From Magnetococcales bacterium (lineage in GTDB: Bacteria; Pseudomonadota; Magnetococcia; Magnetococcales; UBA8363), in the NCBI GenBank assembly GCA_015660855.1, contig JACSDG010000003.1, forward strand, positions 1 through 53,126: a stretch of DNA of 53,126 nt, written 5' to 3'. The notes beneath the pieces are model-generated. The model was not told the DNA's origin and ran no database searches. It saw only the letters and a program-made list of their open reading frames with translations. Below are positions 3,701 to 37,430 of this stretch, one piece after another; position 1 is the first letter of the stretch; each line of letters starts with the position of its first letter. The translations under genes were made by a program, and so were the position numbers.

Positions 3701-3836
3701 GAAAAACCCCCCCCAGGCTGACATCCAGGGTATGGCCGTACAAAACCCTGCCGTCATGCAACTGCAGGGTCATACTGGTTTGATATTCTTGCCGTTCCCA
3801 GTGTCTTTTGCCTTGCCAATCCAAAAAATTTTCCAT
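777..3836 (-). CDS. Cytoplasmic hybrid sensor histidine kinase, PilZ-GAF-HisKA-HATPase-REC-REC-HPt
   Basis: This 1019-residue phosphorelay kinase has no membrane segment. An N-terminal PilZ domain (about 10-105) keeps both c-di-GMP signatures, RHWER (11-15) and DVSLGG (38-43). A GAF domain follows (about 120-262). The HisKA box [12 protein letters not shown] has the phospho-acceptor His287. The ATPase domain shows [17 protein letters not shown] and GGTGLGL. Two receivers carry Asp578 ([11 protein letters not shown]) and Asp721 ([11 protein letters not shown]), and an HPt domain has His870 ([13 protein letters not shown]). The last 60 residues resemble the tail of the kinase at 32565. The gene is divergent from a REC-HD-GYP protein at 4140, so a c-di-GMP-binding kinase lies beside a probable c-di-GMP phosphodiesterase. 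No strong ribosome site precedes the ATG. Inference: it couples c-di-GMP and a GAF ligand to a phosphorelay; the output is unknown. Confidence 0.93.
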
Positions 3837-19799: not shown

Positions 19800-20897
19800 C
19801 TATTCACCGATTAGAAAATCTTCCCACACCACCGGGTTTTCCATCTCCACCGATCGATGAATCTGCCGATGAAGCAAAAGTTCCAGAAAAACTGGTTCCA
19901 AACCGATACCAGGGCGTAAAACTTTGAAATCACCGAGTGTAACGATTTCTCCCGCCTTGATGGGTCGTGCGTAGAAAAGGGAGCGGCGCCCACGGCGGGC
20001 ATGCTCCTCTTCTTCTGGCTGACGCCGTTTGCGCGAACCACCAACAGCCAATTCAGCCGTGTGCATCTGCGTTACCATTTCTTTCAACTCGTCGGGTTCC
20101 AACGCAAAGGGATGATCTGGACCGTCCGAATTGCGGTCCAAGGTGAAATGTTTCTCCAGAACGTTGGCTCCCAAAGTGGCCGCTGCAATCGGCACCGCGA
20201 TACCCAGGGTATGATCCGAGAAACCTACCGGCGTTCCAAAGGCCCGACGCATCGTTTCCATGGATGCCAGATTGGCTCCAGCCGGTCCCATGGGATAGTT
20301 GGAACCACAGTGCAAAAGTATCACATTTTTAGCCCCGCCCTGAGCGGCCGCGTTCAAAGCCCGTTCAATATCCCCGAGGCCAGCCATGCCGGTTGAGAGA
20401 ATCAAAGGCAAGTTTGTGCTTGCCGCATGGCGAATCAAAGGCAGATGACCCAATTCAAAGCTGGCAATTTTCAATGCCGCAACACCTAGGGCAACCAAAC
20501 GATCAACGGCGACCTCACTAAAGGGAGAAGACAAGAACAAAATTCCCCTCTGTTTAGCGTGTTGCGCCAGGGCTTCGTGAAAATTATCGGGCAGGGAACA
20601 ATTTTTATAGAGTTCCTGCAAAGTATTGCCCCAAACCCGAAATTCTTCTGGCAGTCGGGTGGCAGGATTTTCAAAGTTTGCCGCCAGATCTTCTCCAGTG
20701 AACGTTTGAAATTTGACTGCGTCACATCCTGCATCGGCTGCCGCATCGACGAGAGCCAGGGCGGTATTCAAATTTCTACCATGGTTGGATCCGGCCTCGG
20801 CAATGACGAAACACGAATGACCTGGTCCAATAACGTGGTTCCCCAGAGGTACTGTCGAAGACCAATCGGACAAAACCGGACTGCTGATGAAAAACAT
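19800..20897 (-). CDS. pseI: Nonulosonic acid synthase (PseI, NeuB family)
   Basis: It condenses phosphoenolpyruvate with a six-carbon diamino sugar to give a nine-carbon acid. The 365-residue protein has the NeuB barrel (AEAGSNHGRNL, DAVKFQTFTGEDL, LILSTGMAG, HCGSNYP, EKHFTLDR) and a C-terminal antifreeze-like SAF domain (YARPIKAGEIVTLGDF to the end). KIASFE and GPDHPFALEPDEL are closer to PseI than to sialic acid synthase, which usually shows KIPSGE. The ATG at 20897 has GGAG nine bases upstream; the longer TTG start is unlikely. A block of Arg, Glu and His (RKRRQPEEEEHARRGRRS) precedes the SAF domain. Confidence 0.9.
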   Translation of the reverse strand: MFFISSPVLSDWSSTVPLGNHVIGPGHSCFVIAEAGSNHGRNLNTALALVDAAADAGCDAVKFQTFTGEDLAANFENPATRLPEEFRVWGNTLQELYKNCSLPDNFHEALAQHAKQRGILFLSSPFSEVAVDRLVALGVAALKIASFELGHLPLIRHAASTNLPLILSTGMAGLGDIERALNAAAQGGAKNVILLHCGSNYPMGPAGANLASMETMRRAFGTPVGFSDHTLGIAVPIAAATLGANVLEKHFTLDRNSDGPDHPFALEPDELKEMVTQMHTAELAVGGSRKRRQPEEEEHARRGRRSLFYARPIKAGEIVTLGDFKVLRPGIGLEPVFLELLLHRQIHRSVEMENPVVWEDFLIGE

Positions 20898-20921
20898 GGC
20901 AGATTTCTCCAATTTGAAGAA

Positions 20922-22250
20922 TCAACGTACTTTGAACAACGGCTGCAAAGGTTCACACCGCAGAAATCGTGCCATCTGTTTATTATCTACAGCATCTTTA
21001 ATGATCGGAAAAACCTCTCCATAAACGGAAATAAGCCTCTCCACATCCCCAACGCTGTGTGAGTAGCTCACGTTGTGGGAACCAAGACCAAGAATTCCAC
21101 GAGCCAAGATTTCCTGCATGAACAATGTCCGTATTTCAAAGGAGGAGTACCCCCCAGCGTCCCGCATCAGGAGAAAAGACCAGACCGGTTGGCCTGCTGC
21201 CTCGAAAATGTGCTCCATCCCGTGCAGGGCGATCATTTCTCGGACACCATCCAACAACTGTTTCCCACGAGTCCACATGGTTTCAAGCACCGGTTCTCGA
21301 CGCAACTTGTCAAGTGTAGCCCGGGCGGCAGCCAGTGACAGGGCTTCGCCACCAAAGGTAAAAGAGAAAAATATGTCCTCCATGAAACGCATGATTTCCT
21401 TGCGACCTCCAATCGCCGACAAGGGGTAACCGTTGGCCAACCCTTTACCGAAAGTCGCCAAATCGGGAATAACTCCAAAGTATTCCTGAGCACCACCTAT
21501 AGCATAGCGAAAACCGGTGATGGTTTCATCAAAGATCAGGATCGCGCCGTGCTGGTGTGTTAGATCTTTCACCTTTGTTAAAAAATCATCTTTTGGAAAG
21601 GCAACGTTCATCGGTTCCATGATCACTGCCGCCAACTGATCCGGATAACGGGCAAAAATTGTTTCCAATGAGGCCAGATCATTGTAAGCGAACGTATGGG
21701 TCAGTTCACGAACGACATCCGGAACTCCCAAATGACGGGCTGTGGAACCAATGTACCAATCTTGCCAACCGTGGTAACCACATACTGCGACATGGTTACG
21801 TTTGGTATAGGCCCGGGCCAGACGAATAGCTCCCGCAGTGGCATCGGATCCATTTTTTCCAAAGCGAACCATTTCCACGCAAGGAACCATCGCCACCAAC
21901 CTTTCCGCCACCTCCATCTCCAATTTGTGGGGTAGTGAAAATATGATTCCTTGTTCAAGTTGGGCGGCTACGGCACGGTTAATGTCCGGATCGTTGTATC
22001 CCAGGGAAATGGCTGCAAGGGAATTGATAAAATCGATGTATTCGTTGCCATCGACATCCCACACCCGGCACCCCTGACCTTTTTCGATGAAAAATGGGGC
22101 CGCTCCGTAGGGGAACTGTACTTTGCTCTTGCTGAAAGTCTGCGAACCCAGGGGAATAGTCTGCAAAGCCCTCTGCAACAACGCTTCCGATTGCTTGTAT
22201 CTATGTCCTTGCGGATGAGATGGTTCTTCTTTAACATGATCCATGGTCAT
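20922..22250 (-). CDS. Class III PLP aminotransferase (glutamate-1-semialdehyde aminomutase-like)
   Basis: A 442-residue fold-type I PLP enzyme. Key features are GKNGSDATAGAIRLARA (phosphate binding), IFDETITGFR with Asp241 pairing the PLP nitrogen, and TFGKGLANGYP with the PLP lysine Lys269. The relatives move amino groups on semialdehydes, and members in sugar islands are thought to act on nucleotide-activated or acyl substrates. The long N-terminal arm binds near DVDGNEYIDF. GGAAGG stands eight bases before the ATG. It lies 24 bases before pseI and 100 after the radical SAM gene. Its place in pathway chemistry is unknown. Confidence 0.88.
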   Translation of the reverse strand: MTMDHVKEEPSHPQGHRYKQSEALLQRALQTIPLGSQTFSKSKVQFPYGAAPFFIEKGQGCRVWDVDGNEYIDFINSLAAISLGYNDPDINRAVAAQLEQGIIFSLPHKLEMEVAERLVAMVPCVEMVRFGKNGSDATAGAIRLARAYTKRNHVAVCGYHGWQDWYIGSTARHLGVPDVVRELTHTFAYNDLASLETIFARYPDQLAAVIMEPMNVAFPKDDFLTKVKDLTHQHGAILIFDETITGFRYAIGGAQEYFGVIPDLATFGKGLANGYPLSAIGGRKEIMRFMEDIFFSFTFGGEALSLAAARATLDKLRREPVLETMWTRGKQLLDGVREMIALHGMEHIFEAAGQPVWSFLLMRDAGGYSSFEIRTLFMQEILARGILGLGSHNVSYSHSVGDVERLISVYGEVFPIIKDAVDNKQMARFLRCEPLQPLFKVR

Positions 22251-22350: not shown

Positions 22351-23433
22351 TCACAGATCATAGTCGAGACAATTGCGGCACAAATCAACCTCATTAAGGC
22401 TTCCTGTTTTATTGAGTTCAATCAACTTTTTCCTTAGATAAGAATTCCATATTTCCTCAATGGTTTTTTCTTTCGCATTACCCAATGAAAATTTACCGTT
22501 AAAATCGGTATCGCAAAAGGTTGTTTCCCCATTGGAAAAAATAAAAAGATCGCTGCGATTAATACGGTGACAGCTCTTTTTCTCCTTTCGTTGGCGGAGA
22601 ATGGCATCTTCCTGATTCGGTTCTACATTTTGAGAAAACGCTTCCAATATATTGATTGCAAGGATATCTGCATGTCCCGTGAATCGTTGGAGAAATGGGT
22701 CAATTTCATCTCTGGCGCATTGTTGATCGATAATTTGAACACGCGTGAACGGTGTACGTCGGCCTGAAGCTTTTTTTCGTTGGATCAGGTCGTTAAAATT
22801 GTCCATGTGTTGGTTGAAGTTTGATTTTGGTGAAATAATTTCGTAGGTCTCAGGACGGTCTGCGTTAACGGACATGTTCATGAACGTTATATTGGATTGG
22901 ACGATCATCTCGGCAAAGCGGGCGTTGAGATCCCGACCATTGGAAGAGAGCCAGATTGGCCCCAAGTTTTTCTTATCGGAAACATATTTCAGCAGTGATG
23001 GAAACTCGGGGTGAAGGATGGATTCTCCCAGGTTGAAAATCCATATACCATCAATGTGGATCGCATCCAGAGCATCCACACACTGTTTGAACAATGTGGG
23101 ATCCATATCGATACTTTCCCGCTCCAAACTTTGTCGTGGGCACATGTGACATTTCAGGTTGCATCGACTGGTCATTTCCAGCAATACCCGTGTTGGCAGG
23201 TGGAGACGATGCGGAAACTTGGGGTTGGAGCGGACAATGGGAACCAAAGGCATACCGCCTTGGATATAGTCAAAAAACAATTTAACATTATCGTCGTTAA
23301 GATCTAACTTTAGACGATTATCGACCTTGACCGGGGCAATTCCTTTCCATTCGGAGTAAGTTACATATCTGCCTTTTCCTGCTATGGGTAACGTCTCTAG
23401 AAATTCGATTTTTTCTGGTTGAACAAGCTCCAT
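22351..23433 (-). CDS. Radical SAM enzyme with SPASM-like C-terminus
   Basis: A 360-residue radical SAM enzyme. The cluster motif is SRCNLKCHMC with Cys91, Cys95 and Cys98; FNLGESILHPEF follows as the SAM-binding GE-type motif, and SSNGRDL continues the barrel. The C-terminus has further cysteines (SCHRINR, TTFCDTDFNG, DLCRNCLDYDL), as in SPASM or twitch proteins that hold an extra Fe-S cluster. The ATG has a strong GGAGGAAA site. Gaps of 136 bases to pseF and 100 to the aminotransferase are the widest in the island. Substrate unknown; radical epimerisation, dehydration or C-methylation of a sugar are possible. Confidence 0.88.
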   Translation of the reverse strand: MELVQPEKIEFLETLPIAGKGRYVTYSEWKGIAPVKVDNRLKLDLNDDNVKLFFDYIQGGMPLVPIVRSNPKFPHRLHLPTRVLLEMTSRCNLKCHMCPRQSLERESIDMDPTLFKQCVDALDAIHIDGIWIFNLGESILHPEFPSLLKYVSDKKNLGPIWLSSNGRDLNARFAEMIVQSNITFMNMSVNADRPETYEIISPKSNFNQHMDNFNDLIQRKKASGRRTPFTRVQIIDQQCARDEIDPFLQRFTGHADILAINILEAFSQNVEPNQEDAILRQRKEKKSCHRINRSDLFIFSNGETTFCDTDFNGKFSLGNAKEKTIEEIWNSYLRKKLIELNKTGSLNEVDLCRNCLDYDL

Positions 23434-23569: not shown

Positions 23570-24268
23570 TTACTGTCTTTTCTTTTGAAACAATCTCTCT
23601 GCCAATTCCCAATCTTCCGCATCATCGATATCCACCGATTTCCAACGTGGCAATATCAGACCAACAAAGTTTCCATCATCCCCAGAACCTCCACCAAGAA
23701 CCTGTTGCACCGGAAAAAAAGTGAAGCAACCGGTTTCATAGTATCTTTTTGGCAAATCCTGTGAACGAACTGCAAACATGCCCGGTTGCACAGGCTCCAA
23801 CAGGCCATCCTCTCGCCGCGAATAGGCCCATTCCACAGGCACCGGATACGATGTAATACTCATCACCGCCCGTTTCCCTGAAAAACGTTCAAACAACAAA
23901 GACCCCTCGCGTAAATCCGATGCTTCAATCAGTGGTGCACAGGCCATCAGTAAAACGACCTGATCAAATATTCTTCCCCGCTCTTTGAAGGTATCCACCA
24001 CATGCTTTAATACTGGCATGAGGGGGGTGTGATCATCGGCCAATTCGTTTGGCCGCATGAAATCAACCTTATATCCGAGTTGGTCAGCCACTTCCATGAT
24101 ATGGCCATCCTCGGTAGATACATGAATGCAATCAAACAGTTCCGACTCTCTTGCAGCATCCAATATATGCCCCATCATTGGCTTACCATGAAAGTTCTTT
24201 ATGTTCTTGTCCGGCAGACGTTTACTGCCACCTCGCGCAGGAACAACGGCGATACGTCGGGGTTTCAT
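23570..24268 (-). CDS. pseF: Pseudaminic acid cytidylyltransferase PseF
   Basis: It activates the nine-carbon acid with CTP to the CMP-sugar used by glycosyltransferases. The 232-residue protein starts RRIAVVPARGGSKRLPDKNI, the CTP-binding motif, followed by KNFHGKPMMGHILDAA and HVSTEDGHI, a pattern closer to PseF than to NeuA. LLMACAPLIEASDL and later YYETGCFTFF fit the family. Length is usual. The frame is open to 24304, but ATG 24268 overlaps the upstream stop as ATGA, so I chose it. Confidence 0.92.
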   Translation of the reverse strand: MKPRRIAVVPARGGSKRLPDKNIKNFHGKPMMGHILDAARESELFDCIHVSTEDGHIMEVADQLGYKVDFMRPNELADDHTPLMPVLKHVVDTFKERGRIFDQVVLLMACAPLIEASDLREGSLLFERFSGKRAVMSITSYPVPVEWAYSRREDGLLEPVQPGMFAVRSQDLPKRYYETGCFTFFPVQQVLGGGSGDDGNFVGLILPRWKSVDIDDAEDWELAERLFQKKRQ

Positions 24269-25113
24269 GGATTGGATTTCCTCATTTCCAGTATCATAAG
24301 GCACTCACTTTCAAAGAAAAACAAATCTTCCTGGCTTTTTTTTGGGGTTTCCAGGCTGACCATGGCATTGTCCGGAAGCAGATTCACAAGGGATGGAAGG
24401 TTATAATCTCCCTCTCCAAGGTGAAGGTGTTGATCACGAATACTTCCCATGAATCCATCGCACAAATGATAAATTTGCGGGTTTAACTCCAAAAAGTTTT
24501 CCAAAACCCGATGATGGTCCAGTTGTGCGTAGGCTGAATAACAAAGTGCATGACTGAAATCCAAGCAAAAACCTGAGCCAAGCAAAGATTTCGCTTCCAG
24601 GATGTCATCCGGCGTCACTCCAACACACCTAGACCCATCCGTAGACAAACACGGCTTATTTTCAATCCACAGGGGACACGGAGGCGTGGCGAAAGCCCCA
24701 AGCTGACGTACACTTTCAGACAAATTTCCACTGGTTCCCAAATGAACGATCAACCCCTCTGGATCGAAACGGTCAGCATAGCGCATCACCTCGTTCCACA
24801 TTCTCCTGTTGGAAGATTCCTTTTCTTTGAGCGACAGATTAAACCCAGCCCCAAAATGCGGGGCATGAAGAACTTTCGGGACACCATGAATCTGCCAGTC
24901 ATACCCGTACTCTTTTTCGGTTCCAGGAACGATATACAATTCAACATAACGAATGATCTCCGAGTCGTAAAGACGCCTGACTTCGGAAATCAAAGGCTTG
25001 TTGCTGGTCCATATCTTAAGGCCCAAACAAACCGAATTCCACAAAAACGGCTGCGCCTCGAAATTTAATCCACCTTTGGCTTGGCTCACCCTTGATTTTT
25101 CCCTAACACGCAT
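24265..25113 (-). CDS. Sugar phosphate isomerase/epimerase-like TIM barrel protein
   Basis: A 282-residue protein of the xylose-isomerase-like/AP-endonuclease-2 superfamily. Metal-ligand positions appear as HAPHFG, LIVHLGTSG, WIENKP, FCLDFSHAL, YHLCDGF, and LHLGEGDYNL, and the strand order fits a TIM barrel. Members isomerise or epimerise sugars or cleave damaged DNA; this context points to a sugar. GGAG lies only two bases before the ATG, so initiation may depend on coupling to the aldo/keto reductase gene 19 bases upstream. It overlaps pseF by four bases. Confidence 0.78.
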   Translation of the reverse strand: MRVREKSRVSQAKGGLNFEAQPFLWNSVCLGLKIWTSNKPLISEVRRLYDSEIIRYVELYIVPGTEKEYGYDWQIHGVPKVLHAPHFGAGFNLSLKEKESSNRRMWNEVMRYADRFDPEGLIVHLGTSGNLSESVRQLGAFATPPCPLWIENKPCLSTDGSRCVGVTPDDILEAKSLLGSGFCLDFSHALCYSAYAQLDHHRVLENFLELNPQIYHLCDGFMGSIRDQHLHLGEGDYNLPSLVNLLPDNAMVSLETPKKSQEDLFFFESECLMILEMRKSNP

Positions 25114-25132: not shown

Positions 25133-26038
25133 TCATTGGCCGACCTGCCAACACGCTGGATTCAAATAATGTGCACTCTCATCCGGTACTGCCGGAAATG
25201 TCTGCCTGTGGTAATCATTATCGCACCGTTGCACAATAGCCACTATTTCTTCCAGTTCATCGACCCCGGTAACCCCCGTTAACACAAAATCCAATTCCGG
25301 TTGCTCCATGGCAAAGCGCAGACACCCCTCCAACGGCGACCATCCCTTTGCATCAAAGGCAGAGTGGATGGCGGCAAAATGGTGGCGGACCGGCGAAAAA
25401 TAGTCGGGCAACTTTTCGGGAGGCATGAGGAGGAGTCCCTGGAGAAAAATGGATCGGGCATGAATTTCCACCCCTCTCTTTTTCAGTTTCTCCAAATGGC
25501 CGGAATGAATTAGGCGTTGATCGGCTACATTGATGGGCAATTGTATGACATCGGGGGTAAACAGATCGAGAATGCCATCAATTTCTGTCGCAGTGTAGAT
25601 GGAAACTCCGATCTTTTGCGTCATTCCGGCATCCCGGCAGGCCTCCATCGCCCGAATCAAACGATGCCCGTCAGGTTTAAGCAGGTCGGTTGCATGGTGG
25701 GCCAATAAACCATAAACCGCAGGCAGACCCAGGCGACTCAATGATCGAGTCAGGGCTGCCGCCACATTTTCACCATCCTTTTCGCTGACCTCGGGACCTG
25801 CTGCCACCGGCAGTTTGGTAACCACCCGGAAAAACCCCGGACGGGCCGCCATGATGCCGCCAAGAACCAACTCACTGTCACCGTAACCCGTGGCCGTGTC
25901 CAGCAGGGTCACGCCATTGTTTGCTGCCAGTGACAAAATATCCCAGGCCTCCCCCTCGGAGACGCGACCTCGCTGATTGGAAATGCCATAATCCAGGCCA
26001 AACTGAACAGTCCCCAATCCCAGCTTTTGTATTTTCAT
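25133..26038 (-). CDS. Aldo/keto reductase
   Basis: A 301-residue NADPH-type oxidoreductase. Seen are KLGLGTVQFGLDYGIS at the start, LLDTATGYGDSELVLGG with the catalytic Asp-Tyr pair, KLPVA with the lysine, and LLAHHATDLL with the His. The C-terminal VLTGVTGVDELEEIVA binds cofactor phosphate. Similar genes sit in nonulosonic acid clusters of other bacteria, where their role is not settled. ATG 26038 overlaps the upstream fusion gene as ATGA; a start at 26071 is less likely. Confidence 0.9.
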   Translation of the reverse strand: MKIQKLGLGTVQFGLDYGISNQRGRVSEGEAWDILSLAANNGVTLLDTATGYGDSELVLGGIMAARPGFFRVVTKLPVAAGPEVSEKDGENVAAALTRSLSRLGLPAVYGLLAHHATDLLKPDGHRLIRAMEACRDAGMTQKIGVSIYTATEIDGILDLFTPDVIQLPINVADQRLIHSGHLEKLKKRGVEIHARSIFLQGLLLMPPEKLPDYFSPVRHHFAAIHSAFDAKGWSPLEGCLRFAMEQPELDFVLTGVTGVDELEEIVAIVQRCDNDYHRQTFPAVPDESAHYLNPACWQVGQ

Positions 26039-28149
26039 CGGTTTGGTTTCTTTGTCTTGGCCAACGCACAAACCTCCCGGATCACCGTTTCCACTTCGGC
26101 GTCACTCATCCCAGGAAACAACGGTAGGGAAAGACAGGTTTCGTAATAGTTCCATGTATGGGGAAACGCCGTTTCATCCACTGGAAACCGTTCTCGATAA
26201 TAGGGATGGGAAAAAACGGGAATATAATGTACCTGGGTCAAAATCCCCCGATCCTTGAGGGCACCCATCAACTCAATCCGACTCATTTCCAAATGAACAA
26301 AATCGCACCGAAGAACGTACAAATGAAAATTGGCCTCACTCTGCGGTGCTTCGTAGGGGGGGATTCCCCATGACAGCCCAGAAAAAGCTTCGTTGTAGCG
26401 TTGCACAATCTTTCTACGGCGATCCCGAAACCAGTTTAATTTTTTTAACTGGGAGATGCCCAGGGCGCATTGAAGATCGGTCATCCGATAATTAAATCCC
26501 AGGGCTACCTGTTCATAATACCAAGGTCCATGGTTGGTCGCGTCAAAATTTTTGGAAATGCCGTGGGAGCGCAATATTTTTAATTTTTTCTCCAAAGCCA
26601 TATCATTGGTAACCACCATGCCGCCTTCACCTGTGGTGATATGCTTGACCGGGTGAAAGCTGAATATGGTCATATCCGAAAAACGACCATCGCCAACGGG
26701 GGTTCCAAGATAACAAGACCCCAAGGCATGACACGCATCCTCAATCAGGGTGATTTTCCGGCCAAACTCAATTTCCTTCTTACGGACAATGTCATGAATC
26801 CGTTTCATGTCACAGCTTTGCCCGGCAAAGTGCACCGGAATGACCGCCCTGGTTCTGGCAGTGATTTTTTGCTCCAGGGCGTCGGGATCCATGTTGTAGG
26901 TTTGTGGGTCGATATCCACGAACAGCGGTACCGCCCCACAATAGACAGCGCAATTAGCCGAGGCCGCAAACGTGATGGGAGAAGTGATCACTTCGTCCCC
27001 CGGTCCCACACCGCAGGCCAGACAGGCGATATGCAAAGCCGCAGTACCGGAATTTACCGCGACGGCATAGCGAGCGTGGACGGTTTGGGCCACGTCTTTT
27101 TCAAAGTGATCAATCGTCGGTCCCTGAGTCAAACTCCACGAGTGCAATACTTTCGTCACTGCTTCCATGTCATCGGCGTCAATCAACTGACATCCATAGG
27201 GAATCACATCCCTTTGCGGCAGAATGCAAACAGGGGCGGCCACCTTTGCACACTCCTTGAGCCGATTTGGAAAACCATCACGCCAATCCCGGAAGAAAGC
27301 GGCCAAACCTTCCCGAACCGTCGGTACCTGCCCCCCCCCGATTTCATTCAGAAGGGTGGGTTGTCCGTCTGTAGGCAGGCAGGCTGCGTTCGCGGGCAGC
27401 GGCAAACGCACAATTCTTGGTTGAATGAACGCAGGATCCAGCCCAAAAATCCTGGCCAGCTCCTGTCCGAATGAATAATTCGACAGGTCATCGTTGCCAA
27501 TCACTCGAAAAAAACCGGTCACTCCCTGACGGAGACACCGACCCAGCAATTCGGCAAAATCAAGGACATAAATGGCGGAGAAAACCCGCTCGGTAAAACA
27601 GAAAACCGTCTCCTTATTGAAAAGATTGCGCAACAACCATTCGGGAAAACACTCCACATCACCCACATTCCAGCCAAACAACCTGGTACGCAAAACCAAA
27701 GACTCCGGGTGGTCCATGACCATCCGTTCCGCCTCCGTCCTGTCAGACACATACCAATTTTCGGGATCACCAACGATTGGCACTTCTTCGTTGAAAGGGG
27801 AATCTTCAGCCTCAATGGAGATAAGAACCACACGGGCGTGAAGATCCCTTGCAGCGTCGAGAATCACCCGCGTCGACAGGACGTTGGACCTCCAACTGCG
27901 CTCCTGGTCGGCAGGGTCGTGGCCGTAATGGACAGCAGAAATAGTGTGAATTATGACCTCTGGTTTGAACTGCGTCAGACACTGGCGGACCCGGTTGTAG
28001 TTCTGCACGTTCAGCGCGGGCGTTTCTACGTCAGGGATGGCGACGGGATGCGTGCGAGAAATACCCAAAACCCGCGCCACCCTGTCTTTGAAATACCAAG
28101 CCAGATTGCCCCCAGTCAGACCATCGACTCCGGTTATGAACACCCTCAT
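26035..28149 (-). CDS. pseC: Fusion: RmlD-like SDR domain + PseC-type aminotransferase
   Basis: A 704-residue two-domain protein. Residues 1-290 are an extended short-chain dehydrogenase: MRVFITGVDGLTGGNLA binds NAD(P), then HTISAVHYGHDP and a sugar-epimerase-like tail. Its active-site segment reads YVSDR (133-137), so the usual Tyr-x-x-x-Lys has Arg in place of Lys, and STD is replaced by SIE; activity is doubtful. Residues about 312-704 are a complete PseC: SWSLTQGPTIDHFE, NSGTAALH, TSPITFAASAN, EDACHALGS and SFHPVKHITTGEGG with the PLP lysine Lys502. PseC converts the PseB 4-keto product to the 4-amino sugar. The gene follows pseB by 53 bases and overlaps the reductase by four. I do not recall this fusion from described pathways. 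Confidence 0.9.
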   Translation of the reverse strand: MRVFITGVDGLTGGNLAWYFKDRVARVLGISRTHPVAIPDVETPALNVQNYNRVRQCLTQFKPEVIIHTISAVHYGHDPADQERSWRSNVLSTRVILDAARDLHARVVLISIEAEDSPFNEEVPIVGDPENWYVSDRTEAERMVMDHPESLVLRTRLFGWNVGDVECFPEWLLRNLFNKETVFCFTERVFSAIYVLDFAELLGRCLRQGVTGFFRVIGNDDLSNYSFGQELARIFGLDPAFIQPRIVRLPLPANAACLPTDGQPTLLNEIGGGQVPTVREGLAAFFRDWRDGFPNRLKECAKVAAPVCILPQRDVIPYGCQLIDADDMEAVTKVLHSWSLTQGPTIDHFEKDVAQTVHARYAVAVNSGTAALHIACLACGVGPGDEVITSPITFAASANCAVYCGAVPLFVDIDPQTYNMDPDALEQKITARTRAVIPVHFAGQSCDMKRIHDIVRKKEIEFGRKITLIEDACHALGSCYLGTPVGDGRFSDMTIFSFHPVKHITTGEGGMVVTNDMALEKKLKILRSHGISKNFDATNHGPWYYEQVALGFNYRMTDLQCALGISQLKKLNWFRDRRRKIVQRYNEAFSGLSWGIPPYEAPQSEANFHLYVLRCDFVHLEMSRIELMGALKDRGILTQVHYIPVFSHPYYRERFPVDETAFPHTWNYYETCLSLPLFPGMSDAEVETVIREVCALAKTKKPNR

Positions 28150-28202: not shown

Positions 28203-29249
28203 TCACTTGGGATTGACGACAGGAGACCAGCGGCTCTCTTCAATCCGATAATCGTCGGAAATCTGAACCAACAGCTTTTCCAGGTCAGCAACGCGCATAA
28301 AATCGGGATTGGTGTCGGAGACATAACGAAAATGTTCCTCGCACGGTTTTCCAACGCCATCCGGGTTTTTCGGGTCCAACAGTCTGGCCCGCAGGGTGGG
28401 TTCGGACTGGACCACATAATGCTTGTCAAATTCGACGGCATTCCGGGCTTCATCCTCGCTGATCAAAACTTCATGCAGTTTTTCACCAGGACGGATGCCG
28501 ACGGTTCGCTGCTCGCAGTGTGGTCCAATGGCGGTAGCCAGATCGGTGACTTTCATCGAGGGAATTTTGGGAACGTAGAGTTCACCTCCCTGGCAATGGG
28601 CCAGTGCATACAAGACGAAGTGGACCCCCTGAGATAATGTGATCCAAAAACGGGTCATGCGCGGGTCGGTGATGGGCAGAACTCCCGTTTTCACCCGCTC
28701 CTGAAAGAAGGGAATCACCGATCCCCGGCTGCCAACGACGTTGCCGTAGCGAACAACGGAAAAAATGGTTCTGAGTGATCCCCTGTAAACCTTGGCGGCG
28801 GAGAAAAGCCGGTCGGAGCAAAGCTTGGTGGCACCGTACAGGTTGATGGGGTTGCAAGCCTTGTCGGTGGATAGGGCCACTACCTTTGTAACATTGCTGT
28901 ACAGGGCTGCGTCGATGACGTTCATGGCCCCAAGCACATTGGTCTTGATGCACTCTCCAGGATTGTACTCGGCTGCCGGAACCTGTTTGAGTGCTGCCGC
29001 GTGGACGACATAATCCACATCGTGGAAGGCGCGCTTCAGCCGATCACCATCACGAACACACCCCAGCATGTAACGCAGGCAGGGATGTTCTTCGACAGTG
29101 AACCTTTGGGCCATCTCAAACTGCTTAAGCTCATCGCGACTAAAGACAATCAATTTTTTTGGCTTATATTTTTGCAATACGATCTGCACAAATTTTTTGC
29201 CAAATGACCCGGTTCCCCCCGTGATCAAGACTGTTTTACCGTTTAGCAT
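28203..29249 (-). CDS. pseB: UDP-GlcNAc 4,6-dehydratase (inverting) PseB
   Basis: First enzyme of pseudaminic acid synthesis: UDP-GlcNAc to UDP-4-keto-6-deoxy-L-IdoNAc. The 348-residue SDR starts NGKTVLITGGTGSFGKKFV, has FSRDELKQFEM, HAAALKQVPAAEYNP, ALSTDKACNPINLYGATK with the Tyr-x-x-x-Lys pair, and RYGNVVGSRGSVIPFF, all typical of PseB. ATG 29249 has GGAG ten bases upstream; the frame extends to 29330 without family sequence. It is the first gene of the island and is preceded by a promoter-like site at 29401-29430. Confidence 0.95.
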   Translation of the reverse strand: MLNGKTVLITGGTGSFGKKFVQIVLQKYKPKKLIVFSRDELKQFEMAQRFTVEEHPCLRYMLGCVRDGDRLKRAFHDVDYVVHAAALKQVPAAEYNPGECIKTNVLGAMNVIDAALYSNVTKVVALSTDKACNPINLYGATKLCSDRLFSAAKVYRGSLRTIFSVVRYGNVVGSRGSVIPFFQERVKTGVLPITDPRMTRFWITLSQGVHFVLYALAHCQGGELYVPKIPSMKVTDLATAIGPHCEQRTVGIRPGEKLHEVLISEDEARNAVEFDKHYVVQSEPTLRARLLDPKNPDGVGKPCEEHFRYVSDTNPDFMRVADLEKLLVQISDDYRIEESRWSPVVNPK

Positions 29250-29400
29250 GCTTGGAAAACTCCATGGCTTCGACAACCTGAATAAACTTCGGAATCCAAA
29301 GTTTCGATCCCGTTTTTGCAAGGCTGGCAACCTTGTTTAACCGGGGAGCGGAAAATACGATGCCCTTCGGGCAGGAAACAGATTTCCCTCCAAACCGGGC

Positions 29401-29540: not shown

Positions 29541-29882
29541 GACGAGACACCCGACCTGTGCGATCTGGACAGCCCTGGTATCTTAAAAAACACGGTACCA
29601 TTGCATTTTTTTTTAAACTCAATTAGCATTTCTCCCCTTGATTTTCCGGCTTGGTGTCGTTGCGTGAACAATATGGCTTGGCGTGTGCATGCTGGCATCG
29701 GGCGGTCTTGTGGTGTTGGTCCAGGTCCGTTGTGTGGGCATTCCAACGTCTGTGACTCCCTCCTTAAGGCAGGCTTTCTGCGGCTTTCTGGCGACCGTTG
29801 ACTGAAAGCAAATGAACTGTGTGCCCCGGATGAAAAAATGTACATCCATGTTGTTATCACCTGATCCATTGGAGCGTTGGTT

Positions 29883-31001
29883 ATGGTAAGAACCAGTTAC
29901 GGTGCCTACAGTTCATTCAAAATTATCCACCATCAGGACCGTCTGGAGGATTTCAGGCAGGGACGCCAGCCTGTCCCCTTGCAGGTTGAGTTTGTCATTT
30001 CCGATATCTGCAACCAAAACTGCTCTTTTTGCGCCTACAGAATGGACGGTTACACCTCCAATATTCTGTTCGGCAAGCCTGATCTTATCACGGGCATCAG
30101 CAATAATAATCCCAACCGCAAGATTCCATTTGAAAAATGTTCGGAAATATTGAGTGACTTGCAGGAGATGGGGGTGAAAGCTGTGCAGTTTACCGGCGGC
30201 GGTGAGCCGACATCCCATCCGCAACATATCGAAATATTTAGAAAAACGTTGGATCTTGGACTGGATTTTGCCTTGATTTCCAACGGCACCATCGTGAAAG
30301 ACGCGCTCCCCGAACTTCTTTCTCATGGCAAATGGGTTCGTTTCTCCATCGATGCCGGAAACACGACGACCTATTCCAGAATTCGTGAAGTCCCCTCAGG
30401 GACTTTTGACAAAGTCCTGGCAAACGTCAGAAAGGTTGTCGATGCCCGGATGAAAAATCGGGATTCGGGATTGATCATTGGTACTGGTTTTATCGTCACC
30501 AAGGATAACTACAAGGAAATCTATGAGGCGACGAAAATTTACAAGGATCTCGGGGTTGACAACATTCGCATTGGGGCTGCTTTCACTTCGGACAATTATG
30601 CCTACCATCAGGATCACTACGAAGAGGCCCGAGAGTTGGCATCCAGGGCCAAAGAAGATTTTCACTCCAATGATTTCTCTGTGTTCAACCAGTTCGGTGA
30701 TCGTATCCAGGATTTGCTGGATCGAAGGATTGAAGATGATTTTTGCGGTTACATGTATCTCAATGCTTATATCGGGGCCGATTTGAATATCTACACCTGC
30801 TGTAACAACGCTTACAGTCCCGATGGAAAAATGGGAAGCATTGATGGCCGGAGGCTGAAGGATTTTTGGTTCAGTCCCGAGAAACAACAAATTTACGCCA
30901 ATTTTAAAGCCACTCGTTGCGCTCGGTGTATGTTTATCGAGAAAAACCGTTTGATCGCCTACGCCCTCAATAAAAATCCCATTCACGTCAACTATATCTA
31001 A
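29883..31001 (+). CDS. Radical SAM enzyme with C-terminal cysteine domain
   Basis: A 372-residue radical SAM enzyme. SDICNQNCSFCAYR provides Cys43, Cys47 and Cys50; FTGGGEPTSHPQ is the SAM-binding GGE motif; SIDAGNTTTY is strand 4-like. The C-terminal part has CGYMYLN, IYTCCNNAY and CARCMF, suited to an auxiliary Fe-S cluster (SPASM/twitch). I chose ATG 29883, with GGAG eight bases upstream, over the TTG at 29877. It is divergent from the island and its last 14 bases overlap the convergent MFS gene. It is only loosely similar to the radical SAM protein at 22351. Substrate unknown; the position suggests the same glycan or a related peptide. Confidence 0.88.
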   Translation: MVRTSYGAYSSFKIIHHQDRLEDFRQGRQPVPLQVEFVISDICNQNCSFCAYRMDGYTSNILFGKPDLITGISNNNPNRKIPFEKCSEILSDLQEMGVKAVQFTGGGEPTSHPQHIEIFRKTLDLGLDFALISNGTIVKDALPELLSHGKWVRFSIDAGNTTTYSRIREVPSGTFDKVLANVRKVVDARMKNRDSGLIIGTGFIVTKDNYKEIYEATKIYKDLGVDNIRIGAAFTSDNYAYHQDHYEEARELASRAKEDFHSNDFSVFNQFGDRIQDLLDRRIEDDFCGYMYLNAYIGADLNIYTCCNNAYSPDGKMGSIDGRRLKDFWFSPEKQQIYANFKATRCARCMFIEKNRLIAYALNKNPIHVNYI

Positions 31002-32380: not shown

Positions 32381-32568
32381 CCATAACAGATCTTGGTTTG
32401 TGGGGTATGATGGGGTATTTAGAGGGGGGTAGCCATCGAGTGTCGCGGATGGCAACGGTTAGAACGACAGTGGGAACCGACTGCAAAAACCGTAACCTGA
32501 CATCAAGGAGAAAACTGGACACCATGCACACACCATTGATGCCCGCATGTTTCAGGGTCCGGCCATGA
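32371..32568 (+). CDS. Possible upstream small ORF coupled to the hybrid kinase
   Basis: A 65-codon frame starting at GTG 32371, or at internal starts such as ATG 32524, ends with TGA overlapping the kinase ATG at 32565 (ATGA). No protein family is visible. AAGGAGA lies 13 bases before the ATG at 32524, too far for a good site. It may be chance, or a leader that couples translation of the kinase. Low confidence. Confidence 0.2.
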   Translation: MDKPITDLGLWGMMGYLEGGSHRVSRMATVRTTVGTDCKNRNLTSRRKLDTMHTPLMPACFRVRP

Positions 32569-35500
32569 TCCGGTTTTTCAGCCGCCATCCTGTAAAAATC
32601 CTGGGGCTTTCTCTTATTGCCGGATTTTTCTGCACTTTTTTGCCGTTGTATATCGCCTGGGATCATTCTTTAGGCCAAAATCGCAAATTGCTGTCCAGAG
32701 AAAACGAGTTGTTGGTGCAAAATCTTTCCGGGAGTCTGGCGTCCGGGATTCAGCATGTCCAGGATTTGGCACTGCTGACGCAGATTACAGGGCAGGTGAC
32801 GCGGGATGATTTTAAAATTTTTTCCAAAGCGTTGCTCGCACGCCGTTCCATTTTGCGGGTCACCCTCTACATGCCCCTGCTGTTCAGCAAGGATTTGCCC
32901 GCTTTCAACCAGAAAATGACGGAACTGGGGTTTGCACAGGCCCAGGAAAAGGATATGCAAGGTCCATGGATGGCCAAGCACTCCGAGGAAAAGGTTCATC
33001 TACCCATCGAGTATATTGAACCATTCACCACAAAAAACAGTGAACTCTTGGGGCTGGATTTTTTTTCTCATCCCGACATTGAAGCCACAATCGAGCGTTC
33101 ATTGGTCAGTGGTTTTCCTATTTTTTTACCTAATTTCAATCTTTTCCCCGAAGCAAAAAACATGCTGCTTGTACAGGCTGTCTACTCTGGGCGTAAAGAA
33201 CCTACAACCTATGAGGAACGAAAATTACAGTTCTCCGGCGTCATGGCACTGCTGCTGTCAACAGAAGATCTGATAACGGCAAACATCTCCCCGGAATTGG
33301 ATATCAGCCTGTCTCTGGAAACCGTCCCTATCCCCCCGGAACGGACCATTGGACACCAGAAAATTTTTCATCGATTGGACTCTTCGGACAGCCATGGCAA
33401 AATTGTTTTTTCCAGACTGGATACACGCCAACAATTTTTTTCAACCCCATGGCAATCATTCCATTTGAATATTACCAAAAATATTCACTGGGAAGAGATG
33501 GATGTTTTATTTCTACTGACCGCACTGATTATGGGTCTTGCCTTTGGCGTATTGGGGTTGCTTTTTATTGGGGGAATGATTGTCAGAACAAATCTGTTAA
33601 CGCATCGTAACGAAGAGGTTGAACAGGAGTCCCGACGACAGGCTACCATGTTGAAACTGGTATTGGATACCATTCCGGTACGCGTCTTCTGGAAAGATAT
33701 ACATGGGTGTTATTTGGGATGCAACCAACGGTTTGCCCTCGATTCGGGTTTCCAATCCACAGGAGAAATCCTTGGAAAAACCGATGCTGACATGCCCTGG
33801 CGCGAACACGCCGGGAACTATCGCCTGGATGATTATAACGTCCTTTCCTCGGGCAAGGCCAAGTTAAATATTGAAACCATGCGAACGACCCAGTCTGGAA
33901 GGGAATTGTGGCTGCGGACCAGTAAAATTCCTCTACCGGGGTTGGACGGAGAACTTCTTGGAATTCTGGGTGTTTACGAGGACATTACCCAGCGCAAGGA
34001 AATCGAAGGATGTTTGCGGGAACAGGAAGGGCGGATGCGCCTGGTACTCGACAACGCCGGCGAGGGTATCATCACCATCAACTATTCCGGGATCATTGAA
34101 TCCTTCAATCTGGCGGCCTCAAGATTGTTTGGTTATGCCGCTGACGAAGTCATTGGATTGAACGTCAAGCTATTGATGCCCGAACCTTATCGCAGCAAAC
34201 ATGACGATTATATCCGCCAATATATCAAAACAGGCACCGGAAAACTTATTGACAACGGGCGTGAGGTGGAAGGGGTGCGCAAGGATGGAACCGTTTTTCC
34301 CATTTTTTTGACGGTCAGCCAGTTGAAGGTCAATGAGGAACTTTTATTTACCGGCATCATTCGTGATCTGACACGGGAGAAAGAAAAAGAAACGGAACTC
34401 CTCAAACTTTCGAGCGTTGTCGAAAACAATCCTAACGCCATCATTATCACAGATCTTAATGGCAATATTGAATATGTCAATCCCCAGTTCATGGAAATAA
34501 CGGGATATGGTGCCAGGGAAGTTCTTGGGAAAAACCCAAGGATACTTAAATCGGGTCTTGACCCGGAAAAATATAAAAATCTATGGAGCACCATCCAATC
34601 GGGACAGGTATGGCGCGGCGAATTTCACAATAGAAGGAAGGATGGCACCCTTTATTGGTCCGGGGCCACTATTTCTTCCATTGTTGATAAAGAGGGGAAA
34701 ATTATCCGTTTTGTGGGGGTGTCCCGTGACATCACCAAACAAAAAGAGAATGAAAGAAGGGCAAGAGAGGCCGAAAATCGTAGAGAAAAAAGTGACATGC
34801 TGTTGATGATGTCCCTGGAATCGATTCGGGATGGGTTTGCCATTTTTGACGGCAATAATCGCTTGGAAATATGGAACAATGCCTTTCACGAACTGCACGA
34901 CAAGGTGGCCGACCTGATCATTGCTGGTACCACCTACGATGAAATTCTCCGGGCGGCGGTGGAACGGGGACAAATCACCAAATCGACCGAATATCGGGAT
35001 CCCCTGCTCAACGACCGGGTCAAACATACCGATCGGTTGATTCAAACCTTTGAAGAGGAATTCAGCGGCAATCGTTGGATACGAATATCGGAAAGTCAGA
35101 TGATGGATGGCAGCAGCGTGGTGGTGTATTCGGACATCACTTCGCTGAAAATTGCCACTGCCGAAGCGGAAGCGGCGGCACGGGCCAAAAGTGAATTTTT
35201 GGCCAACATGAGCCACGAAATACGTACCCCCATGAATGCCGTCATCGGTTTGTCCCATTTGTGCCTGCAAACCCCTTTGGCTCCCAGACAAAAAGATTAC
35301 ATCCAGAAGGTTTACAATTCGGCCACATCGTTGCTGCGGATCATCAACGACATCCTTGATTTTTCCAAGATTGAAGCGGGCCGCCTGGATATGGAGGCCA
35401 TCGATTTCACCCTGGAAGAGGTGTTGGGAAACATGGCTGCGGTAATGTCTCTGAAAGCGCAGGAGAAAAACCTTGAATTCATTCTCGATACTGCGGCCGA

Positions 35501-37430
35501 CATTCCCCCCAGTCTGGTGGGGGATCCGTTGCGATTGGGGCAGGTATTGATCAATCTGGTCAACAATGCCATCAAGTTTACCGAGGCGGGAAAGGTTGTC
35601 GTTCATACGGAAGTGATCGAAAAAAGGGAACACCAGGTTCGACTGCGGTTTGTGGTGAGCGACACCGGCGTTGGGATGACCTTGCAACAGCAGGAGCGAT
35701 TGTTTCGTCCTTTCCACCAGGCCGATTCATCGACGACGCGAAAATATGGAGGTACGGGGCTTGGGTTGGCCATCAGTCGCCGCCTGATCGAATTGATGGA
35801 TGGAAACATTCGGGTGGAAAGTGAGCTTAATGTGGGATCCCGCTTTTTGTGTGATGTCCGTCTGGGAATTTCCGCCCAGGCGAAGGAGAGTCGGTTACAA
35901 GCGGGCAGCGAAATCAGGGGAATGAACGTATTGGTGGCCGATGACAACGAAAGTGCCCGCAATATTCTTTCCGAGTATCTCAGGTCGTTTTCTTTTCGGG
36001 TCACCGAAGTTGAAAGTGGATTGGCGGCTTTGGAACGTATCCAGAAGGCCGACAAGGGACCAGACCCGTTTGCCCTGGTGGTCATGGATTACATGATGCC
36101 GGACCTGGATGGTATCAACGCCGCGAAGAAAATACGTGCGGACCTGGGTTTGCTTCATCCTCCGGTGTTGCTCATGGCCACGGCCTATGGCAGTGATGAT
36201 GTCGTCAAGCGTGCCCTGGCGAATGCGTGTGTGGACGGCATTCTGGTCAAGCCCATTCAACAGAATGTTCTCTTTGACACTGTCATGGAAGTTTTTGGCA
36301 AGTCCAAGCCGGGAGGTGGAACCCACACCTCGACCTATGGCAGTTATCGGGATTTTGGGGCCATTTTGTCTGGTGCTCGGATCTTGTTGGTGGAAGACAA
36401 TGAAATCAACCGGCAGGTTGCCAAGGAGTTGCTGGAGCAGGCCAACATTACGGTTTTGATCGCGGAAAACGGTCGGGTGGCGTTGGATATGGTTGCCAGG
36501 GAGGCTCTTGATGGGGTGTTGATGGATGTGCAGATGCCAGTGATGGACGGAATCACCGCAACCCGAGAGATTCGCAAAGATGCTCGGTTTAGATCCCTCC
36601 CAGTGTTGGCCATGACGGCCAATGCCATGTCTGGTGACCGGGAGGAGTGCCTGGAAGCGGGAATGCAGGAGCATATTTCCAAGCCGGTGGATCCGGGTGA
36701 ATTGTTTTCCAAGCTGATTCGCTGGATCAAGCCTGCGGTACCGCAACCCATGCCGATAAAAATGGATTTTTTTCCAAAGGGGGATCGCGGTCAGGAATCC
36801 AGGCTTCCGGAAATCGCGGGCATGGACATGCAGAGCGGGTTGCGCCGCATGGGCGGAAATGTGGGTAGCTACCTGGGATTGCTGGCCAAATTTTGCGACA
36901 ACCAACAGGGCATTTGCGACGCCATCCAAAACGCATTGATTCAGGGCGACCAGGGGACGGCACGACGACTGGTTCACACATTGAAGGGAGTTTCAGCGAC
37001 CATCGGAGCGGTTGAACTCAGCGAGGGTGCCAAGGAATTGGAAGAGGCCCTGCAAACAGAGAGTTATTCAGCCCACGCGCGTCATTTGTTGGACCTGATC
37101 TCTGACAAGGTTCGTGTCACCATCGAGGCTATCCGTGAAGCCTTGGCCAAAAGCCATAAGGAGATGGCTATTGCCCACATCATGAAAGAGACACCCGAAG
37201 TTGCCGCTCGGCGTCGGGAATTATTGATGCAAGCGGCCAGACAGTTGGCCTTTTACGATGCCGCAGTGGAACAGACCCTTGCATCTTTGCGAAATGGCCT
37301 GGTTTCGGAGGCGATGGGAGAGTGGATGGACAAGATGGAGCGTCAAGTAGCCCAATATGACTTCGATGGGGCACTCGATACCCTCAGTCGATGCGCCGAG
37401 AGTTTGGGAATTGCCCTGGGGGATGCTTGA
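32565..37430 (+). CDS. Membrane hybrid sensor kinase with four PAS domains, two receivers and HPt
   Basis: A 1621-residue sensor. A first membrane helix (about 10-32) and a second (about 310-335) enclose an extracytoplasmic domain of some 275 residues. Then come PAS domains starting near 366, 491, 616 and 750. The second resembles FixL: PEPYRSKHDDYIRQY has His546 where FixL binds haem, and GREVEG keeps the Arg of its distal pocket. HisKA (SHEIRTP, His884), ATPase (INLVNNAIKF, DTGVGM, GGTGLGL), receivers with Asp1175 and Asp1321 and an HPt with His1471 ([12 protein letters not shown]) follow. The catalytic half is paralogous to the kinase at 777. I chose ATG 32565 (AGGG eight bases upstream) over ATG 32547. 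Likely an oxygen- or redox-linked phosphorelay, by inference. Confidence 0.93.
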   Translation: MIRFFSRHPVKILGLSLIAGFFCTFLPLYIAWDHSLGQNRKLLSRENELLVQNLSGSLASGIQHVQDLALLTQITGQVTRDDFKIFSKALLARRSILRVTLYMPLLFSKDLPAFNQKMTELGFAQAQEKDMQGPWMAKHSEEKVHLPIEYIEPFTTKNSELLGLDFFSHPDIEATIERSLVSGFPIFLPNFNLFPEAKNMLLVQAVYSGRKEPTTYEERKLQFSGVMALLLSTEDLITANISPELDISLSLETVPIPPERTIGHQKIFHRLDSSDSHGKIVFSRLDTRQQFFSTPWQSFHLNITKNIHWEEMDVLFLLTALIMGLAFGVLGLLFIGGMIVRTNLLTHRNEEVEQESRRQATMLKLVLDTIPVRVFWKDIHGCYLGCNQRFALDSGFQSTGEILGKTDADMPWREHAGNYRLDDYNVLSSGKAKLNIETMRTTQSGRELWLRTSKIPLPGLDGELLGILGVYEDITQRKEIEGCLREQEGRMRLVLDNAGEGIITINYSGIIESFNLAASRLFGYAADEVIGLNVKLLMPEPYRSKHDDYIRQYIKTGTGKLIDNGREVEGVRKDGTVFPIFLTVSQLKVNEELLFTGIIRDLTREKEKETELLKLSSVVENNPNAIIITDLNGNIEYVNPQFMEITGYGAREVLGKNPRILKSGLDPEKYKNLWSTIQSGQVWRGEFHNRRKDGTLYWSGATISSIVDKEGKIIRFVGVSRDITKQKENERRAREAENRREKSDMLLMMSLESIRDGFAIFDGNNRLEIWNNAFHELHDKVADLIIAGTTYDEILRAAVERGQITKSTEYRDPLLNDRVKHTDRLIQTFEEEFSGNRWIRISESQMMDGSSVVVYSDITSLKIATAEAEAAARAKSEFLANMSHEIRTPMNAVIGLSHLCLQTPLAPRQKDYIQKVYNSATSLLRIINDILDFSKIEAGRLDMEAIDFTLEEVLGNMAAVMSLKAQEKNLEFILDTAADIPPSLVGDPLRLGQVLINLVNNAIKFTEAGKVVVHTEVIEKREHQVRLRFVVSDTGVGMTLQQQERLFRPFHQADSSTTRKYGGTGLGLAISRRLIELMDGNIRVESELNVGSRFLCDVRLGISAQAKESRLQAGSEIRGMNVLVADDNESARNILSEYLRSFSFRVTEVESGLAALERIQKADKGPDPFALVVMDYMMPDLDGINAAKKIRADLGLLHPPVLLMATAYGSDDVVKRALANACVDGILVKPIQQNVLFDTVMEVFGKSKPGGGTHTSTYGSYRDFGAILSGARILLVEDNEINRQVAKELLEQANITVLIAENGRVALDMVAREALDGVLMDVQMPVMDGITATREIRKDARFRSLPVLAMTANAMSGDREECLEAGMQEHISKPVDPGELFSKLIRWIKPAVPQPMPIKMDFFPKGDRGQESRLPEIAGMDMQSGLRRMGGNVGSYLGLLAKFCDNQQGICDAIQNALIQGDQGTARRLVHTLKGVSATIGAVELSEGAKELEEALQTESYSAHARHLLDLISDKVRVTIEAIREALAKSHKEMAIAHIMKETPEVAARRRELLMQAARQLAFYDAAVEQTLASLRNGLVSEAMGEWMDKMERQVAQYDFDGALDTLSRCAESLGIALGDA

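Follow-up and report, generated by a model that had tools for sequence, protein, structure and literature searches.

The window, a stretch of 53,126 nucleotides of Magnetococcales DNA, carries a single gene in which an RmlD-type SDR domain is joined to the aminotransferase PseC. The same architecture is spread over three groups of bacteria, the fused PseC halves form one clade, and in the genus of the window the SDR half has lost catalytic and pocket residues and has diverged faster than the PseC half, whose signature is intact. The explanation that we favour, with rather better than even confidence, is that the SDR half is a decayed 4-keto-sugar reductase, probably a dead pseudo-reductase, which still folds and is kept on a working PseC for stabilising or docking.

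The Fusion Gene and Its Surroundings

The fusion frame starts with ATG and encodes 704 amino acids with zero internal stops (Table 1); its placement on the minus strand was absent from the original prediction. Translation, Pfam and NCBIfam confirmed that one uninterrupted frame holds an RmlD-like domain and a full PseC, as had been proposed, and the SIE, YVSDR and Lys502 of that proposal were all read in the translation. The Pfam match to RmlD_sub_bind (PF04321) covered residues 1–245 with 45.6 bits (cut-off 27), and that to DegT_DnrJ_EryC1 covered residues 323–693 with 409 bits. By NCBIfam the second half is PseC, above the curated cut-off, and the SDR half scored 53.7 bits against TIGR01214 (RmlD proper), far below the cut-off of 224.05. 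Lys502 of the PseC half sits in SFHPVKHITTGEGG and is invariant across the four fusions compared.

Table 1. Positions in the window of the fusion gene, its motifs and the pathway genes around it.
Feature	Residues	Position	Strand	Basis or remark
SDR-PseC fusion gene	1–704	26035..28149	-	704 codons; open frame, Pfam and NCBIfam matches, same fusion in 16 other genomes
SDR half, RmlD type, decayed active site	1–313	27211..28149	-	PF04321 and AF2 model
PseC half, intact	314–704	26035..27210	-	TIGR03588, 490.9 bits, cut-off 423.5
TGVDGLTG, glycine-rich cofactor motif, glycines retained	6–13	28111..28134	-	Alignment
SIE replacing STD, triad Thr gone	111–113	27811..27819	-	Alignment
YVSDR, Tyr retained, catalytic Lys to Arg	133–137	27739..27753	-	Lys in 35/35 background rows
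Ala, likely in the substrate pocket (inferred)	255	27385..27387	-	Alignment; Arg in 35/35 background rows
Lys502, PLP lysine by homology	502	26644..26646	-	Aligns with the lysine of ArnB 1mdo
AAGGA, Shine-Dalgarno-like, candidate		27254..27258	-	10 nt before GTG; shared with G042
GTG codon, possible internal start for PseC alone	303	27241..27243	-	Shared with G042
PseB, UDP-GlcNAc 4,6-dehydratase (inverting)		28203..29330	-	Directly upstream of fusion; TIGR03589, 498.9 bits, cut-off 407.75
Aldo/keto reductase		25133..26071	-	Downstream of fusion; longest frame overlaps fusion by 37 nt
PseF-like cytidylyltransferase		23570..24304	-	TIGR03584, 192.9 bits, slightly below cut-off 205.7
PseI/NeuB-type synthase		19800..20912	-	TIGR03586, 327.0 bits, slightly below cut-off 340.25

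An AF2 model of residues 1–302, obtained from eight sequences, had a pLDDT of 83.5 and a pTM of 0.85, with low confidence at residues 73–77, 116–129 and 250–262, which hold or flank the altered sites. The best VIA-align match of this model was RmlD 3sc6 (Z 25.9, rmsd 2.6 over 261), and the RmlD-type 1vl0 gave Z 25.1. Foldseek and VIA-align grouped the model with RmlD, MAT2B and related sugar SDRs; MAT2B was both the best PDB profile match of the SDR half (1.3e-38) and the first Foldseek match. By model and alignment, the extended SDR fold with GxxGxxG is present in the window SDR half. The full-length 704-residue model (four sequences, pLDDT 66) was too poor for domain contacts or an interface.

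After the fusion follow, in this order, the aldo/keto reductase, a TIM-barrel protein, the PseF-like protein, a radical SAM protein, a GSAT-like aminotransferase, and the PseI-like and PseG-like proteins. Since the PseG-, PseI- and PseF-like proteins score below their cut-offs, the end product of the pathway may be other than plain pseudaminic acid. PseH (TIGR03585) was sought in seven genomes; it gave no match at 1e-10 in that of the window (G000), G042, G398 and G824, and passed the cut-off in G400 only. Next to SDR-PseC in Omnitrophota and in G824, either the GSAT-like aminotransferase (20922–22250) or the aldo/keto reductase is met again, and these neighbours belong to a conserved gene set. 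One radical SAM/SPASM protein is encoded among the pathway genes (22351–23433, minus) and a second next to them on the other strand (29877–31001, plus), and the translations of two very long open frames, 777–3836 (minus) and 32547–37430 (plus), resemble hybrid sensor kinases by eye.

Distribution and Origin of the Fusion

A search of 48 Magnetococcia genomes (E 1e-10) found the SDR half in four: that of the window, G042 (50%), G043 (39%) and G040 (34%). It is fused in the first two and in G040, and stands alone in G043. Both G042 (Magnetococcales bacterium DCbin2, with the fusion on contig PEAO01000037.1) and G043 (DCbin4) belong to the genus of the window. Scanning named genomes with a profile turned up two Omnitrophota fusions, along with an unfused SDR from a MAG that bears the label Deltaproteobacteria. 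PseC above the cut-off was present in 83 of the 384 Omnitrophota genomes; its frame is 711–790 amino acids long in 13 of these 83, and it is these 13 genomes that carry a fused SDR. The phylum of the Deltaproteobacteria-labelled MAG contained the fusion in 1 of 46 genomes (G824). The domain order of the original prediction thus has relatives in other genomes, with 17 fusions in all (3 in Magnetococcia, 13 in Omnitrophota and 1 in the third group).

Among 398 genomes sampled from the phylum of the window, Magnetococcia included, PseC passed the cut-off in 77 genomes, with five frames longer than 690 amino acids; G350 and G019 were rejected as fusions, both being plain PseC with a long open frame in front and without the SDR. 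The window SDR alone gave zero matches in scans of the genome-contig and viral-contig sets, and seven weak matches (21–27% identity) to plasmids.

In the PseC tree all 17 fused halves were placed on one branch against 40 unfused rows (support 99/96), and the single fused clade was recovered again in a second tree with 20 other rows. Unfused PseC from other Magnetococcia (for example G014, G038 and G039) fell outside it. The simplest reading would be that the halves were joined once and that the fusion was later transferred between groups. The genome G827, in which separate PseB, SDR, PseC and AKR genes stand in a row, was considered as the pre-fusion state and rejected; its PseC does not branch as the sister of the fused clade, so that G827 shows the same gene order only.

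Many of the genomes involved are draft assemblies or MAGs, in which an assembly error or a frameshift could have joined two separate genes. The 17 fusions nevertheless come from independent assemblies in three groups, with PseC halves of one clade. DCbin2, a MAG assembled independently within the window's genus, also carries the fusion without interruption, with a 14-residue linker identical to that of the window protein (PVCILPQRDVIPYG) and Arg at the Lys place, which argues against an assembly error. The artefact was rejected on these grounds as extremely improbable.

No description of an SDR-PseC fusion was found in the titles and abstract openings of the open-licence literature on PseC fusions and on pseudaminic acid in Magnetococcia or Omnitrophota, nor in passages of PMC3438082, PMC13317340 and PMC7371886. 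As far as searched, the family, otherwise intact in the set examined, is undescribed.

Loss of Catalytic and Pocket Residues in the SDR Half

Forty SDR domains were aligned: the 30 best Omnitrophota loci (the best of 189 among 384 genomes with a match at 1e-30, the weaker ones being left out), three from the phylum of the Deltaproteobacteria-labelled MAG, and seven from Magnetococcia, three of them distant. The Thr/Ser-Tyr-Lys triad was intact in 38 of the 40, among them all 15 other fusions, and the two exceptions were the window and G042. At the triad places the window has Ile112, Tyr133 and Arg137, and G042 has Thr, no Tyr, and Arg. The replacement of the catalytic Lys by Arg, on which the original prediction was centred, is therefore real and, within this set, lineage-specific; its extent had been understated, as Thr is also changed to Ile and conserved pocket residues are lost. 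The possibility that the family routinely uses Arg at this place was refuted within the set, Lys being present in 38/38 SDR domains other than those of the window and G042.

Thirty-nine positions that were kept in 90% or more of 35 background rows were taken as conserved. The window retains 25 of them and G042 retains 24; the share is 92–100% in six intact controls, each compared with a background from which it had been removed. The 14 subfamily positions lost in the window include K224 and R255; Thr112, Asp113, Lys224, Arg255, Ala70 and Glu79 are gone from its SDR half, in which the cofactor glycines persist, as do Trp160 and other fold residues. PF04321 scores followed the same direction (45.6 bits for the window and 28.7 for G042 vs 126–188 in five intact relatives). 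Ten positions were lost in both broken genes, compared with 5.4 expected if the losses were independent (14 × 15 / 39), and at four of the lost positions (4, 9, 70 and 137, the last being Arg137) both carry the same new residue. These shared losses indicate that the decay began in the common ancestor of the two genes, after which it would have gone on separately in each.

It had been suggested that the SDR half might catalyse a different reduction next to the aminotransferase. In such an enzyme Arg137 would act for Lys, and the PseB product or a different sugar would still be reduced; Arg is the mildest swap for Lys, and Tyr133 and the glycine motif are both retained. The six residues named above are lost too, however, the congener has lost Tyr as well, and Arg is used by no other relative examined. 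With two of the three triad residues and several pocket residues lost together, and with the faster divergence of the SDR half described below, an altered but working reductase is very unlikely.

Divergence and Constraint

The SDR/PseC distance ratio was 2.75 for the window-G042 pair; over 105 intact fusion pairs its mean was 1.63 (range 1.00–2.24), and when the window or G042 was paired with an intact fusion it lay between 1.93 and 3.13. The SDR half thus diverges faster in the window-G042 pair than in all 105 intact pairs, an excess that counts as one event, since a single pair of broken genes is known. Between the SDR halves pN was 0.35 and pS 0.74, near saturation, giving a pN/pS of 0.47, and the PseC halves gave 0.24; with dS saturated, dN/dS is only a rough guide. 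A pN well under pS indicates that the SDR halves were under protein constraint for at least part of the time. The constraint appears weaker, not gone, and pN/pS does not distinguish present-day function from decay that set in recently. It counts against a dead reductase that Tyr133 is kept, that Arg might replace Lys, and that the ratios of the intact fusions also vary, from 1.00 to 2.24.

The Junction and a Possible Internal Start

The GTG codon at the junction, preceded by AAGGA (Table 1), could allow PseC to be made wholly or partly on its own, leaving the SDR half as a passenger without any role and still decaying. A site of this type is present at the junction of both broken fusions and in only 1 of the 15 intact ones, the residues after GTG codon 303 run directly into PseC (VAAPVCILPQRDVIPYG), and the rapid divergence of the SDR half and its broken pocket agree with such a state. 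Synthesis of PseC without the SDR half would also count against a stabilising role. On the other side, chance alone would place a site of this kind in a 31-codon stretch at 0.21 of positions for the window and at 0.32 for G042, and the two genes are kin, which makes the evidence for an internal start weak; the frame is open in both, the glycines, Trp160 and other fold residues remain, and the SDR pN/pS is below 1. A passenger of this kind is possible, and we hold it to be the less probable outcome.

A dead but folded pseudo-reductase is preferred. It would trace back to a single ancient fusion between two genes of the pathway, those of an RmlD-type nucleotide-sugar reductase and of PseC, both halves being placed to use the 4-keto sugar from PseB. 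Both halves look active in the majority of carriers. Within the window's genus, the change of Lys to Arg and the loss of several pocket residues would have taken place in the common ancestor; afterwards the window gene would have lost Thr and that of its congener Tyr, PseC staying intact. The window protein most likely carries out the PseC reaction only, in which the PseB product would receive an amino group at C4. The SDR half, presumably inactive at present, would still fold and be kept for stabilising PseC or docking it to partners. This role is plausible because the fold and the cofactor glycines remain; it is the least certain step, about even with that of a mere passenger. The binding or regulatory module of the original prediction is possible on the same grounds, and so is a passive passenger.

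Proposed Ancestral Reaction and the Lone SDR Relatives

Intact SDR homologues repeatedly adjoin PseB. From this position and from membership of the RmlD family we infer that the ancestral SDR used NAD(P)H to reduce the 4-keto group introduced by PseB. G718 has PseB, SDR and PseI in succession, without an intervening aminotransferase, and this genome is not among the Omnitrophota with PseC above the cut-off. G022 and G023 have distant SDRs within operons that contain PseB, NeuB and PseF, neither genome having PseC above the cut-off, and in G617, G682, G770, G637 and G399 an SDR was found near PseB with no PseC above the cut-off in the genome. Counter to this pattern, G682 has a PseC-like aminotransferase (34% identity) after the SDR, and the row of G827 includes a PseC (50%). 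As most of the lone-SDR genomes are probably MAGs or drafts, their lack of PseC carries little weight. At three loci (L071, L036 and L037) PseB, SDR and a NeuB-type synthase share one operon in a genome with no PseC above the cut-off, an arrangement that could correspond to a reductive route to a 7-hydroxy nonulosonic acid.

The reverse case was encountered in DCbin4. Its PseB operon (L045:6864-8184) has kept PseB (82%), PseC is cut to about the last 155 residues, and the aldo/keto reductase is broken, with matches in two frames; no PseC was found in the genome at 1e-90. The lone SDR of DCbin4 lies outside this operon, has intact STDS and YGHTK, and in the SDR tree nests within the fused Magnetococcia group (support 96/81). 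It would be a fission product of the fusion, a paralogue being also possible, and in the window's genus the two halves appear to have parted in opposite ways.

A more tentative idea, which we consider doubtful, is that the fused protein is a branch-point enzyme. The PseB product would be turned either into a 4-amino sugar by PseC or into a 4-hydroxy sugar by the SDR, leading to two nonulosonic acids with an amino group or a hydroxyl at C7. The genus would then have split the choice, the window and DCbin2 keeping the amino branch with a dead reductase and DCbin4 the reductase only. If this were true, a lone SDR near PseB and a NeuB-type synthase, without PseC (G718, G022, G023), would mark a 7-hydroxy nonulosonic acid pathway.

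The fusion is a two-domain surface-sugar enzyme spread over distant bacteria, and it offers a natural series, one half dying while its partner survives, with apparently the reverse in a close relative. The series supplies matched proteins for testing the role of the SDR half, and these bear on whether the 4-keto product of PseB feeds a second, reductive nonulosonic acid branch.

Comparison with Known Systems

The second half of the window protein resembles PseC (UDP-4-amino-4,6-dideoxy-N-acetyl-beta-L-altrosamine transaminase; PDB 2fn6) in passing TIGR03588, in its PLP lysine and in having PseB directly upstream, and it most likely transaminates the PseB product. It differs in carrying a 313-residue SDR half and in belonging to a clade apart from the other Magnetococcia PseC in the tree. 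With RmlD-type reductases (dTDP-4-dehydrorhamnose reductase; 3sc6, 1vl0) the first half shares the fold, a PF04321 match above the cut-off and GxxGxxG; unlike them, it is without the triad Thr and Lys, falls below the TIGR01214 cut-off and is fused to PseC.

CapF is likewise a two-domain protein with an SDR, which acts after CapE, a PseB-like 4,6-dehydratase; its SDR is joined to a cupin and not to an aminotransferase. WbmF, a Bordetella O-antigen SDR, is similar as a sugar-nucleotide SDR with an incomplete triad, having Ala at the Ser/Thr place; it has no PseC fusion, and the Ser/Thr place is the only one named as missing in passages of its description (PMC2279256).

In MAT2B, the regulatory beta subunit of methionine adenosyltransferase II, an RmlD fold serves as the partner of another enzyme. 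It differs from the window SDR half in being a separate subunit with a partner of another enzyme class, in retaining YGKTK and in binding NADP+ (PMC3506619, PMC8638259 for the binding). MAT2A is stabilised by MAT2B (PMC8638259), and the Y159F/K163A change of MAT2B lowered NADP+ binding more than 50-fold while assembly with the catalytic subunit was kept (passages of PMC3506619). With its YGKTK retained, MAT2B can serve as a precedent for the role proposed here for the SDR half, but not for the decay of that half.
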